Below are positions 55,834-62,368 of a stretch of 63,102 nucleotides of DNA, piece after piece; positions within the stretch are counted from its first letter, which is position 1, and each line of letters begins with the position of its first letter. Below the pieces are notes generated by a model, which saw only the letters and a list, made by a program, of their open reading frames with translations, was not told the DNA's origin and did no database searches. This DNA comes from a virus. The position numbers and the translations under genes are program-made. The stretch covers positions 1 to 63,102 of IMG/VR virus record IMGVR_UViG_3300031952_000016, one strand, 5' to 3'.

Positions 55834-56112
55834 ATGGGAACTAAAGTAACAATTCAGAATGTAAGAAACGTAAACAATGCTAAAAAAGAGCAAAACAAAA
55901 CAATAGGCGGTATTATATCCAACATCTTAACGCTAGACAAAAACAAGCTAGAGAATAAAGAAGATAAAAGTATAATTGAATATTTAGTTAAGGCAAAAAA
56001 AGATAGTAACGTATATAAAAGATTATGCGAAAATGTTAAGCTCCACTACAAAACTAATCTACCTAATCAATACGCCGTATTACAAGCCGTTAAGGTTATA
56101 TTAAACAAGTAG
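55834..56112 (+). CDS. Small basic protein within the repeat region
   Basis: A 92-residue lysine- and asparagine-rich protein (MGTKVTIQNVRNVNNAKKEQ) with a helical C-terminal half (NQYAVLQAVKVILNK). It is isolated between two box-rich non-coding regions, so it may be a binder of those boxes or an RNA-linked protein. No domain was recognised. Confidence 0.65.
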   Translation: MGTKVTIQNVRNVNNAKKEQNKTIGGIISNILTLDKNKLENKEDKSIIEYLVKAKKDSNVYKRLCENVKLHYKTNLPNQYAVLQAVKVILNK

Positions 56113-56244
56113 GAATTATCTTACATTTTCAGGGTGCCTACTTTGTTGAGAATAGACAAAGGTAAAAATCGAATTTTTGCACTCTACAAAAGTGGTTTTA
56201 TTGTGTTACACTAGATTAACACAAAATTTATAAAAGTATCTTAT

Positions 56245-56318
56245 TTTGTAGCTCCTAGAGTGCAATTTTAGAAACGTAAACTTTTATAAATAGTTGTATT
56301 TGTAGCTCCTAGAGTGCA
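56245..56318 (+). repeat. 20-bp direct repeat, two copies
   Basis: TTTGTAGCTCCTAGAGTGCA occurs at 56245-56264 and 56299-56318 without mismatch. An inverted shorter copy lacking CTCCTAG (TGCACTCTACAAA) lies at 56178-56190. Confidence 0.85.
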
Positions 56319-56480
56319 TTTAATAACTGTTATTTGAAATTTCGATATATTACAAAGGTGCAAAAGTGTACTAAAATAACCGTATTGTTATACGTTTAAA
56401 ATTAGTACTCGATTAGCTAACAAAGTACATATCGATATGTAAAAAAATGCATTAAACAGTATAAAAAAACTGTTTACAAT

Positions 56481-56513
56481 TGTAACACTACAACGTTACA
56501 AACGTGGTTTTTT
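56481..56513 (+). terminator. Terminator-like hairpin with an alternative stem
   Basis: ACGTT (56493-56497) pairs with AACGT (56501-56505), followed by GG and six T bases. An overlapping alternative, TGTAAC (56481-56486) with GTTACA (56495-56500), would prevent that stem, as in attenuators. Confidence 0.4.
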
Positions 56514-56679
56514 GTGTGTTTTTTATCCATAGGACTGTACGAGGCAAAAGTATGAAGACTCGCCTAAACTAAGTTAATGACTTAATGATACAGTACACAA
56601 AGGTACTAAAGACAAGCTATGTCTAGTAGTGGGCGACCTTTGTAGTAAAAAAGCCAAACGTTGAACGGGGCGAACGGTA

Positions 56680-56707
56680 TTTACAAATGTAAATTTACAA
56701 ATGTAAA
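56680..56707 (+). repeat. Tandem 14-bp dyads
   Basis: TTTACAAATGTAAA occurs twice head to tail (56680-56693 and 56694-56707). Each copy has TTTACA/TGTAAA arms, so it may be a paired operator or two small hairpins. Confidence 0.8.
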
Positions 56708-56722
56708 CAACAATATTAAACT

Positions 56723-56752
56723 ATTCCACTTCAAACGAGGTGGAATTTTTAT
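56723..56752 (+). terminator. Intrinsic terminator, plus strand
   Basis: ATTCCAC (56723-56729) pairs with GTGGAAT (56740-56746) and continues into TTTTT. No protein gene lies within 600 bases upstream, so it most simply ends a non-coding RNA. Confidence 0.75.
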
Positions 56753-56755
56753 ATA

Positions 56756-56802
56756 GCATAGTCATTGGAATGATTAATTAAGGTTCGATTCCTTACTATG
56801 CG
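56756..56802 (+). ncRNA. Minimal tRNA-like fold (acceptor stem plus T arm)
   Basis: GCATAGT (56756-56762) pairs fully with ACTATGC (56795-56801), followed by one unpaired G. Directly inside lies a T-arm, AAGG-TTCGATT-CCTT (56780-56794). The 17 bases between hold only CATT/AATG with a 2-base loop. The D arm and anticodon arm are missing. It could be a tRNA remnant or a tRNA mimic. Confidence 0.5.
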
Positions 56803-56823
56803 CTAATTTAAAACCAAATAAAG

Positions 56824-57006
56824 ATGAGAACACGAATGAACACAAAGGTTGATGTTACAAATGTAATACAACAAATTGAGATTGAGATTAGAGCCTATTC
56901 AAAAGCGGTACGTACTATAATGCTACTTAAGAAGGTGGAGTACAAGGACGCAAAAAGAATTTTGGAAATGAGATTAACTGAACGTTTAATATTTAAAACA
57001 GCATAA
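56824..57006 (+). CDS. Small paralogue with RLTERL motif, copy 1
   Basis: A 60-residue helical protein with VEYKDAKRILEMRLTERLIF. The gene at 57644 shares this block almost fully. It is the first gene after the tRNA-like fold, 21 bases on. Function unknown. Confidence 0.65.
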   Translation: MRTRMNTKVDVTNVIQQIEIEIRAYSKAVRTIMLLKKVEYKDAKRILEMRLTERLIFKTA

Positions 57007-60303: not shown

Positions 60304-61113
60304 ATGTGCATAGCAATTTTAAACACGAAAAAAGCAGGTAGATTACCTAAGAATCAAATCAAAAACTCTTGGGATAACAATGATATGGGAGCAGGTCTCC
60401 TATGGAACAAAGACGGTAAGTTAAATGTATTCAAGTCGTATGACTATGATGACTACATAGACAAGTACAATGCCCTTAGAGATGACAATACCATCAACAG
60501 TATAGTGTTACATTTCAGGATAGCCACTAGTGGTTACAATGGAGAGCATAACCTTCATCCCTTTCTTGTCAATGACAACGTAGGATTTGTACACAACGGA
60601 GTCATTAGTGGACTAGGTAACAAGACCTTCTCAGACACGTATGAATTTAATGATATGCTTAAAAAGTTTAAGCACGATTTCTTATCTTGCGATATGAGTA
60701 AGTTCTTCATATCAGAGTACATAGGGTACAGCAAGCTAGTGTTCTTAGATAACAAAGACAAGCATACCATTATCAATGAGGAGTTAGGTAAGTGGTCCAA
60801 TGGTAATTGGTACTCCAATGATTCCTACAAAGAGTACAAGCCCTATGTTTATTATGGGAATCAAAAGGTTGCTAAGACGGATGTTGCAGGCAGTAAGACC
60901 TACCCTCACTATGATTACAGCAAAGATGCGTGGGATGATTTAGACGAGGGAATAGAGTATGACGAGTGGGATGTGTATGACTACCTATGTAGCGTGTACG
61001 GACTAAACCCTGAGGCAGACGATTCAATAGATGAGTTAGAGACGTATATGACGCTGAACAACGTAGACAACATCATAGATTTGTACAAAATCATAGGCGG
61101 GGAAATGGAATAA
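60304..61113 (+). CDS. Class II glutamine amidotransferase-like protein
   Basis: The 269-residue product starts MCIAIL, placing the catalytic cysteine at position 2, as in N-terminal nucleophile amidotransferases. LHFRIATSGY, then NLHPFL and GFVHNGVISG, are the glutamine-site blocks. It would release ammonia from glutamine, presumably for the amidoligase upstream. Its leader repeats 18 bases (TAAACAATTAACATTATG) found before the amidoligase gene. The C-terminal third is acidic and unique. Confidence 0.8.
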   Translation: MCIAILNTKKAGRLPKNQIKNSWDNNDMGAGLLWNKDGKLNVFKSYDYDDYIDKYNALRDDNTINSIVLHFRIATSGYNGEHNLHPFLVNDNVGFVHNGVISGLGNKTFSDTYEFNDMLKKFKHDFLSCDMSKFFISEYIGYSKLVFLDNKDKHTIINEELGKWSNGNWYSNDSYKEYKPYVYYGNQKVAKTDVAGSKTYPHYDYSKDAWDDLDEGIEYDEWDVYDYLCSVYGLNPEADDSIDELETYMTLNNVDNIIDLYKIIGGEME

Positions 61114-61125
61114 ACTATCATCATT

Positions 61126-61236
61126 ATGGAAAACGTAAACAGATTTTACGAGTGGATGCTTAAAGTGAAGAGCATCCACTTATCGGACAACGAGCGTATG
61201 ACTAGAGCATACGAAATAGTATATCAAAACAGTTAG
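61126..61236 (+). CDS. Tiny helical protein
   Basis: A 36-residue ORF (MENVNRFYEWMLKVKSIHLS) 12 bases after the amidotransferase gene. Probably translated; no family known. Confidence 0.45.
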   Translation: MENVNRFYEWMLKVKSIHLSDNERMTRAYEIVYQNS

Positions 61237-61615: not shown

Positions 61616-61756
61616 GAATGACGGTTAAAAATCCTTACTTGTCGGTAATGTAGGCAGTTGTAATGCCATTGGTTAATTCAGTACGTCATTCAGCATCAAT
61701 AGATGCTCACTCATATAGCTGAAATTACAATAAGACTGACTGATGGAAAGACATCA
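61616..61756 (+). ncRNA. Structured stretch before the tRNA-like gene
   Basis: GAATGACG (61616-61623) pairs with CGTCATTC (61684-61691), enclosing GGCA/TGCC (61653-61667). AGCATC-AATA-GATGCT (61692-61707) stacks next to it. TGATG-N6-CATCA (61741-61756) follows. These helices lead directly to the tRNA-like gene, so they may be part of one precursor RNA. Confidence 0.4.
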
Positions 61757-61758
61757 AT

Positions 61759-61832
61759 GGGGGATTAGCTCAATTGGTAGAGCCGTGAGCATAGGCATAA
61801 CGAGGTTACAGGTTCGAGTCCTGTATTCCCCA
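61759..61832 (+). tRNA. tRNA-like gene with abnormal anticodon arm
   Basis: Acceptor GGGGGAT (61759-61765) pairs with ATTCCCC (61825-61831; one G-U). The D arm is GCTC-AATTGGTA-GAGC, and the T arm ACAGG-TTCGAGT-CCTGT (61808-61824) is perfect, with discriminator A and no encoded CCA. The region between the D and T arms is one base too long and has no normal 5-bp, 7-base-loop anticodon arm. The best fit is CGTGA/TAACG with one mismatch and a 9-base loop. No anticodon can be assigned. It may be degenerate or specialised. Confidence 0.55.
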
Positions 61833-61852: not shown

Positions 61853-62368
61853 ATGAAAACAGTAAGAGAAAAAGTAATTGAACAGATTAGACTGCAGGAG
61901 AAAATGCAAAGTCTAGCAAAAGTAAACCTAGTTACTTGTGGTAATTGTGGTGCTACATTATTGCACGAGCTGAATGAAGAGCAAATTGACTGCTTTGCGT
62001 GTGGTAATATGATTGACCAATCAGACTGCCCGGACTATTGGTATAGTGGACTAGAGAACTCAGAAGAGTACAATAGAGAGGAGCCTACTCTTTATGGAAA
62101 GTTAATTGACATAGAGGTTAATGAAGCGGTAGAACTCAGCACTATCATCAAACAAGAAAACATTGAGAACGCAAAAAAACTACTTAAAAGTGAGGGCTAC
62201 TATATAGACAGCCTTTGGACGACAGATGACGTTACAGAGAACTACAATTGCACAGAGGAACAGGCTCAAGAGGTGCTTGATAGCGCATTAAATAACGAGG
62301 CAACTATGCAACAGATATGGGATGCCATCAAGTGTAGTGCAGAGGATTTAAAACTAAAAGAGATATGA
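61853..62368 (+). CDS. Protein with N-terminal zinc ribbon
   Basis: The 171-residue product has a four-cysteine ribbon, TCGNCG (about 29-34) and CFACG (about 47-51), and then an acidic, helical C-terminal part (ENIENAKKLLKSEGYYID, CTEEQAQEVL). It starts after the TTTAATCAAATG leader. Nucleic-acid or protein binding is likely; function unknown. It overlaps the next gene by ATGA. Confidence 0.65.
   Translation: MKTVREKVIEQIRLQEKMQSLAKVNLVTCGNCGATLLHELNEEQIDCFACGNMIDQSDCPDYWYSGLENSEEYNREEPTLYGKLIDIEVNEAVELSTIIKQENIENAKKLLKSEGYYIDSLWTTDDVTENYNCTEEQAQEVLDSALNNEATMQQIWDAIKCSAEDLKLKEI

Follow-up and report, generated by a model that had tools for sequence, protein, structure and literature searches.

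In mitochondria, tRNAs punctuate polycistronic transcripts, and the bacterial Y RNA YrlA carries a tRNA-like module that mimics tRNA without decoding. Structured leaders are also known; the put antitermination RNA of HK022 lies ahead of early terminators. In the available excerpts of PMC11143913, RNase P cleaves model substrates made up of an acceptor stem, T-stem and T-loop, and processes the phage M3 and C4 RNAs. Neither a phage case of tRNA punctuation nor a report of phage mini-tRNAs was found in the open-licence literature searched, as far as its accessible excerpts extend.

The window analysed here (the whole stretch of DNA, 63,102 bases of a virus record) encodes GroEL on the minus strand (54554-52947) and a primase/helicase with relatives in phages of Flavobacterium, Polaribacter, Cellulophaga, Maribacter and Bacteroides; it probably belongs to a phage of Bacteroidota. 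Approximately 2 kb upstream of groEL, between the leftward and rightward gene blocks, lie a structured RNA (type A, 56529-56663, plus strand), a terminator-like hairpin and, directly 3' of the latter, a 46-nt mini-tRNA that lacks an anticodon arm (56756-56801, plus strand). Because the terminator is followed by the mini-tRNA and then by a co-directional gene 20 nt further on, a more fitting reading of the stretch is a leader for a rightward phage operon, with the mini-tRNA as a processing mark (probability roughly 0.6). The initial annotation had covered 56534-56752, correctly described as free of ORFs (nothing over 31 amino acids is encoded). The most telling element, the mini-tRNA, is just outside those coordinates, and the description of the terminator as one that no protein gene needs was incomplete.

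Loci for comparison were taken from 80 of 122 groEL relatives. Named phage records held no close DNA relative covering most of the query, and the single lead from them (cr53_1; H5, E 0.02) turned out to be a mini-tRNA. Many contigs (L005-L008, L016, L058, L059) stop approximately 1 kb upstream of groEL, at a genome end or an assembly break. Upstream of the type A RNA, the window carries two copies of the direct repeat TTTGTAGCTCCTAGAGTGCA, 54 nt apart (56224-56321).

Relatives have related DNA at the same distance from groEL as in the window, and further type A copies were found by a pattern built from the conserved 3' side of the RNA. The resulting alignment holds seven sequences (the window, L100, L101, L102, L104, L105 and L107); three of the nine pattern matches (L103, L106 and L108) were without the structure and coding-like, and were dropped. 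Across the seven homologues, 93.7% of cells are paired in the named structure, compared with 83.7% in shuffles, and 13 of 34 pairs have changed on both sides. Cells changed on both sides number 23, against 8.5 in shuffles (none of 500 shuffles as high), while sliding the structure along the alignment lowers pairing to 33-44%. An unconstrained consensus fold of the same alignment recovers helices P1, P2 and P4. The type A RNA is almost certainly real, and the original proposal of an undescribed structured RNA with base pairs preserved in homologues was borne out by this covariation and by Rfam, in which no family matches at the gathering threshold; at E up to 10, only chance-level hits appear in 56000-57000 (all E ≥ 1.7, below thresholds). 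A covariance model of type A (R2) matched seven places in 33 sources; each is a training locus, lies in the same record as one or is an overlapping copy, and no additional type A member came to light in these sources.

The helices differ in how well they are kept. P1 (56534-56539 with 56589-56594) has changes on both sides in five of its six pairs, and P2 (56542-56544 with 56563-56565) shows compensatory changes in the consensus fold. P4 (56595-56646), present as first described, is a long interrupted hairpin with an asymmetric internal loop (GTGGGCG side), in which 8 of 19 pairs have changed on both sides among the seven homologues. The P3 hairpin (56570-56584) occurs in only 3/7 homologues with zero compensatory change, its variation being one broken pair and nothing else; the three-way junction of the initial annotation is therefore not a conserved feature, although its P1 and P2 are kept. 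L102 and L100 do not retain the CGTT/AACG hairpin, and the suggestion of a packaging RNA found no support. A possible further helix upstream of the core, P0 (56502-56530, plus strand), is weak, with only 4 bp in the window (GTGG/CCAT), where an alternative pairing scores higher; its counterparts have 7 bp in L104 (GTCGTGT/ACACGAT) and in L101 (GTTGTGT/ACATAAC).

Fold energy was rejected as proof of an RNA. On the plus strand, 56534-56752 folds with -51.2 kcal/mol (z -3.33), but the minus strand folds even better (z -4.26), and a z of -3.33 or below is found for 5 of 200 random 219-nt stretches taken from this contig. At the scale of the genome, the density of complementary segments by itself is therefore no higher than chance would give.

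In other relatives, the slot of type A is occupied by a different conserved RNA, type B, for which five sequences (L110-L113 and L004) show changes on both sides in 8 of 32 predicted pairs; one of the five type B pattern matches (L109) lacked the structure, was coding-like and was dropped. Types A and B, and a type C at a second site (below), are kept while the first downstream ORF differs among relatives. That type A persists as the first downstream gene changes favours either a role of its own or control over the whole operon.

Between the type A RNA and the mini-tRNA, the annotated intrinsic terminator was found as a terminator-like hairpin at 56723-56746 (plus strand; 10 bp with four G-C pairs, TTTTTATATAG), the 3' arm of which contains AGGTGGA. 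It combines a GC-containing hairpin with a T run, a combination that shuffles give 0.7 times per region. The terminator is weaker in some relatives, with AATTGTTATAT or AATATTG after the hairpin (L064, L009, L100), and GGTGGA stands ahead of the mini-tRNA in 11/11 relatives tested. The two tandem dyads of the initial annotation are present as exact TTTACAAATGTAAA copies (56680-56707), but look like DNA operators. With up to one mismatch, the window has 7 occurrences of TTTACANNTGTAAA, where 0.82 would be expected, in palindrome sites at 56680-56707, 56473, 23034, 25340, 22869 and 58945, some of them far from the type A RNA; TTTACANNTGTAAA palindromes are also found near the RNA in relatives. 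By their sequence and distribution, the TTTACAAATGTAAA/TTTACANNTGTAAA dyads are probably operators of a phage regulator.

Between terminator and mini-tRNA, L004, L011, L021, L026 and L081 have a conserved hairpin (e.g., TTGTGGCGAAATCCCACGA inside TTCCTT...AAGGTGGAA) that is perhaps a second, decayed tRNA-like element. A shared ACTATCAT box follows a terminator, upstream of the tRNA-like element, in L067, L073, L077, L079 and L082, some of which also have AATGTGGTC repeats; box and repeats are a possible phage promoter or operator. The window carries AAACTATCATCATT near 61110 (61110-61126).

The mini-tRNA itself consists of a 6-bp acceptor (56756-56761/56796-56801, GCATAG/CTATGC), a D-like arm (56762-56773, TCAT TGGA ATGA) and a T-arm with the 5 bp and TTCRANN loop of tRNAs (56779-56783/56791-56795, TAAGG TTCGATT CCTTA), with an acceptor-to-T-arm spacing of 17 nt. 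The discriminator, G56802, is followed by CTAATTTAAA and an ATG at 56824. The mRNA leader (56803-56823, plus strand) opens in its sequence with the tRNA-like +1 C (CTAATTTAAAACC...), and the first gene after the mini-tRNA is a 60-aa ORF (56824-57006, plus strand), with similar first ORFs (MRxRI...) in L004, L009, L026 and L081. All five features that define the class are thus found in the window: paired acceptor and T-arm, a GG-containing D-like segment, no anticodon arm, the +1 C and a nearby ORF. Lacking an anticodon arm, the element cannot decode.

Nine aligned family members (alignment A4) have 100% of cells paired, with changes on both sides in 7/15 pairs; counts of further standard pair types are not above shuffles in this nine-member set. 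Omitted from A4 were L021, L022, L029, L032, L048 and L107 (inserts), L101 (a differing element) and L038, which is identical to L041 in the mini-tRNA stretch (T-loop AGCGAAA in both). The space of the anticodon arm is empty in the site 1 relatives or holds unrelated inserts (L048, L032, L022). A covariance model built only from the elements of other phages (R1) has its best match in the window at 56769-56796 (E 3.4e-4; the second has E 1.1), spanning the D-like segment and T-arm without the acceptor. We have very little doubt that the mini-tRNA is a real element. Among groEL loci that extend 3.3 kb or more upstream, the close form is found in only 13/46 and a diverged form in 5 more, and the mini-tRNA is thus dispensable. 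The Rfam tRNA model (RF00005) reported nothing at 56756-56801 in the window; the copy in L029 passes its threshold (34.2 bits). A full tRNA at site 1 was rejected, as ARAGORN found 0 tRNAs in 52 upstream regions, and so was a tmRNA (RF00023), in which a split tRNA-like domain encloses a tag ORF and pseudoknots: its model gave no more than two partial matches (E 2.1 and 2.9), and both acceptor strands of the element lie within 46 nt.

A second tRNA-like element lies at 61759-61831 (plus strand), preceded by a structured leader RNA conserved in relatives (type C, 61630-61758, plus strand), in which 5 of 29 predicted pairs have changed on both sides. The element is called tRNA-Leu by ARAGORN and scores 48.1 bits in Rfam; its sequence reads as having a mismatched anticodon stem and an A at position 33. 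It is followed by A-CTAATTTT and an ORF at 61853. In relatives, this slot holds an intact tRNA-Met (L087), other tRNA-like elements with anticodon loops of, e.g., 3 nt (L088) or 9 nt (L090), or no such element (L144); L091 was omitted from the alignment (A5), being near-identical to L088. In the phage G032, a U-tract and a gene come after the type C RNA and no tRNA-like element is present, which counts against punctuation. Real tRNA-Gly and tRNA-Met also precede CTAACTTTAAA...ATG in other phages. Real tRNAs and mini-tRNAs therefore interchange in the same slot.

Similar elements are common in other phages. A first pattern, joining a T-loop to CTAACTTTAAA, matched 24 stretches in viral contigs; in these, one and the same position ahead of an ATG is taken by mini-tRNAs, by tRNA-like elements carrying long inserts or by real tRNAs. 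A second pattern, restricted to a D motif and a T-loop with its closing pair, matched at least 120 stretches in viral contigs and 14 in genome contigs. Among the matches listed, the acceptor is paired in 102 of 116 distinct elements, and 50 different acceptor pairs occur; an ATG lies within 90 nt of 98/102 (median 22 nt), and CTAA follows 47/102. An ORF of 30 aa or more starts at the first downstream ATG in only 57/102 of the listed elements, a proportion that counts against punctuation. An alignment (A3) of 50 of the 84 distinct complete elements among the matches listed, poor-acceptor ones included, was restricted to those in which an unpaired base before the 3' acceptor strand scored at least as well as none; the 34 others were omitted. 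In these 50 listed elements, pairing reaches 96.9% versus 56.4% in shuffles, 224 cells versus 68.1 have changed on both sides, and the covariation score is 1.039 versus 0.242. Pairs with changes on both sides (10/11 versus 9.7 in shuffles, again among the matches listed) are a count that is not telling.

A structural descriptor (gap 8-40) gave 9 matches in the window family (394,553 bases) and 27 in 13 phages, each chosen for at least one pattern match, against 0.1 in shuffles of either set. A pattern for the form in the window matched 13 stretches of viral contigs; four are real, all in the window family, and the nine outside it, which serve as a negative control, are chance matches with unpaired stems, so that the UGGA-hairpin form is seen only in this family. 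Acceptor and T-stem stack to 11 bp, or to 12 with a mismatch in many minimal elements (canonically 7+5 in tRNA), and the outer acceptor pair of minimal elements is mostly A-U or U-A, where G-C is usual in tRNA. The phage G045 has an array of 11 mini-tRNAs over 4.5 kb (L182 18674 to L183 3165), spaced by 278-654 nt, with a small ORF after each element and often a hairpin directly downstream. Other phages have 2-5 mini-tRNAs spaced along one strand, some among real tRNA-Met or tRNA-Gly. R1 recognises the cr53_1 copy (E 1.3e-7); over 33 sources it gave only nine matches at E up to 1, and this minimal model therefore misses most insert-bearing elements of the window family and most of the G045 array. 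It had no match in an isolated elemoF phage (L138, L139), and in crAss001, which has ordinary tRNAs, it gave one weak candidate outside them (E 0.022). The minimal elements are covered by no Rfam family; in nine sources, only two real tRNAs were found with it. The phages scanned likely infect Bacteroidota, judging by the primase relatives, the crAss-like match and the genome contigs; of the 14 matches in genome contigs, all from metagenome bins, 8 are labelled Bacteroidota or a group within, and the other 6 Bacillota, Bacilli, Lachnospiraceae, Aliivibrio (twice) and Gammaproteobacteria.

The 3' junction was compared with that of tRNAs. A C follows the discriminator in 29/29 tRNAs of three host-like genomes and in 62/64 phage tRNAs found with a descriptor blind to the 3' flank (33/33 and 95/97 by ARAGORN), and in 57/64 mini-tRNAs; C makes up 17% of these phage contigs. 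Mini-tRNAs thus share the 3' junction of tRNAs. CCA is encoded in only 2/65 mini-tRNAs, which counts against the punctuation reading. The tRNAs of the host-like genomes (G057-G059; loci L330-L359) keep the C after the discriminator and have CCA in 2/33, and C without CCA after tRNAs is a possible signature of 3' processing in Bacteroidota. Of 98 elements, 25 have a hairpin that begins within 6 nt after them, compared with a mean of 12.9 and a maximum of 19 in 50 shuffles; 15-21 nt further on, the count does not exceed that in shuffles (13 versus 12.2).

In the mechanism that we propose, transcription of the operon leader would yield the type A RNA (56529-56663), ending at the terminator-like hairpin, and read-through transcripts would reach the mini-tRNA with its acceptor stem, UGG-containing D-like arm and T-arm. 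Host RNase P (5' side) and RNase Z (3' side) would most likely recognise and cut it, and the structured RNA would thereby be parted from an mRNA whose short leader opens with CUAAUUUAAA and whose translation starts at 56824. The same device would act at 61759 and, in a minimal form of approximately 40 nt, before ORFs in many phages. Against this mechanism count, besides the points named above, the short acceptor and the mostly A-U or U-A outer pair of the minimal elements, the lack of an Rfam tRNA match for the copy in the window, the dispensability of the mini-tRNA at groEL loci and the restriction of the UGGA-hairpin form to one family. That mini-tRNAs punctuate transcripts by being cut, with these enzymes as the presumed agents, we regard as reasonably probable. 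For the broader statement that phages of Bacteroidota use a widespread, hitherto undescribed class of ~40-nt anticodonless mini-tRNAs as cut marks, which would provide every downstream gene with a defined mRNA 5' end in the manner of mitochondrial tRNAs, and that types A, B and C are new families of leader or non-coding RNA released in this way, the chances appear even.

Type A could instead be a cis-acting antitermination or attenuation leader that controls the terminator at 56723-56746 in the manner of the HK022 put RNA or a riboswitch, the mini-tRNA being secondary. This tentative alternative fits the location of type A between the divergent upstream region and the terminator, where a long block of rightward genes begins, as well as the conservation of RNA types A, B and C ahead of a variable first ORF; yet the terminator is poorly kept in the three relatives named above, and type A contains no recognised ligand- or protein-binding motif. 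If type A were an sRNA acting in trans, or a protein sponge, with its end at the terminator, this would explain a discrete conserved structure with its own terminator-like hairpin after it. We consider this role rather unlikely given that the only long conserved single-stranded seed is the tail AGTARRAAAGCCAAA and that the structure sits in an operon leader, and we slightly favour a cis-acting leader over an sRNA.

Other alternatives concern the mini-tRNA. Its short, constant distance to the start codon (the median of 22 nt among the matches listed) would suit a 5'-UTR element that binds ribosomes or proteins and affects translation or stability without being cut, but intact tRNAs occupy the same slot and a hairpin often lies right after the mini-tRNA, as expected for a new 5' end; such a role is unlikely. 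Decoys against host defences that attack tRNAs are conceivable in view of Cas12a3, which, in the available excerpts of PMC12851939, engages the acceptor stem and T-arm of tRNA and cuts CCA tails, since mini-tRNAs retain exactly these contacted parts. The fixed place before ORFs, the arrays and the missing encoded CCA would be left unexplained, and we think this function very improbable. Fragments of tRNA genes are known to arise by integration (PMC9897764, available excerpts), and the series at site 2 does run from an intact tRNA to degenerate anticodon arms, as decaying, functionless tRNA genes might. Covariation between the two acceptor strands contradicts an origin as fragments or decaying genes, and integration would copy host tRNA ends rather than give 50 distinct acceptor pairs (among the matches listed), making this origin the least credible of all.

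If mini-tRNAs are indeed processing marks, phages with Bacteroidota hosts, at least one crAss-like phage (cr53_1) among them, would share a general device of gene expression, and tRNA-like sequences that escape tRNA finders or are called as odd tRNAs would be accounted for. Mini-tRNAs would also be naturally occurring minimal substrates of RNase P and RNase Z, as well as compact parts with which mRNA ends could be set. What had been a vague 'structured RNA' becomes a testable arrangement, with cuts predicted at single-base resolution (56755/56756 and 56802/56803).

Of the known systems, mitochondrial tRNA punctuation is similar in that tRNA-shaped elements lie between genes and are expected to be cut by tRNA-processing enzymes; the phage elements, for which cutting is predicted, differ in being non-decoding mini-tRNAs that lie in phage operons, mixed with real tRNAs. 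The M3 and C4 RNAs, set beside the mini-tRNAs by description and not by sequence, are single RNAs of other phages and, to our knowledge, not a repeated element before ORFs. What likens the M3 RNA and the C4 antisense RNA to the mini-tRNAs is that they are phage non-tRNA transcripts processed by RNase P (PMC11143913, available excerpts). Minimal RNase P substrates have the same helical stack as the mini-tRNAs (same excerpts), but are synthetic, and the phage elements add a UGG-containing D-like segment. The element in the window shares with tRNA (RF00005) a T-arm with TTCRA, a D-loop-like GG and the +1 C of host tRNAs, and differs from it in an acceptor of 6 rather than 7 bp, the absent anticodon arm and a score below the gathering threshold. 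The HK022 put RNA resembles type A as a structured leader, a likeness of description rather than sequence. A bacterial Y RNA was rejected, with a TROVE/Ro gene in 0/16 phage records including the window; among the phages tested, only crAss001 has this gene (gp96), and the tRNA-like element with a 107-nt insert downstream of it (96205-96340, minus strand; L361 46205-46340) might be a tRNA-like Y RNA. Both tRNA punctuation and tRNA-like processing signals thus belong to known kinds of device; what looks new is a dedicated, anticodonless mini-tRNA that is repeated before phage genes.
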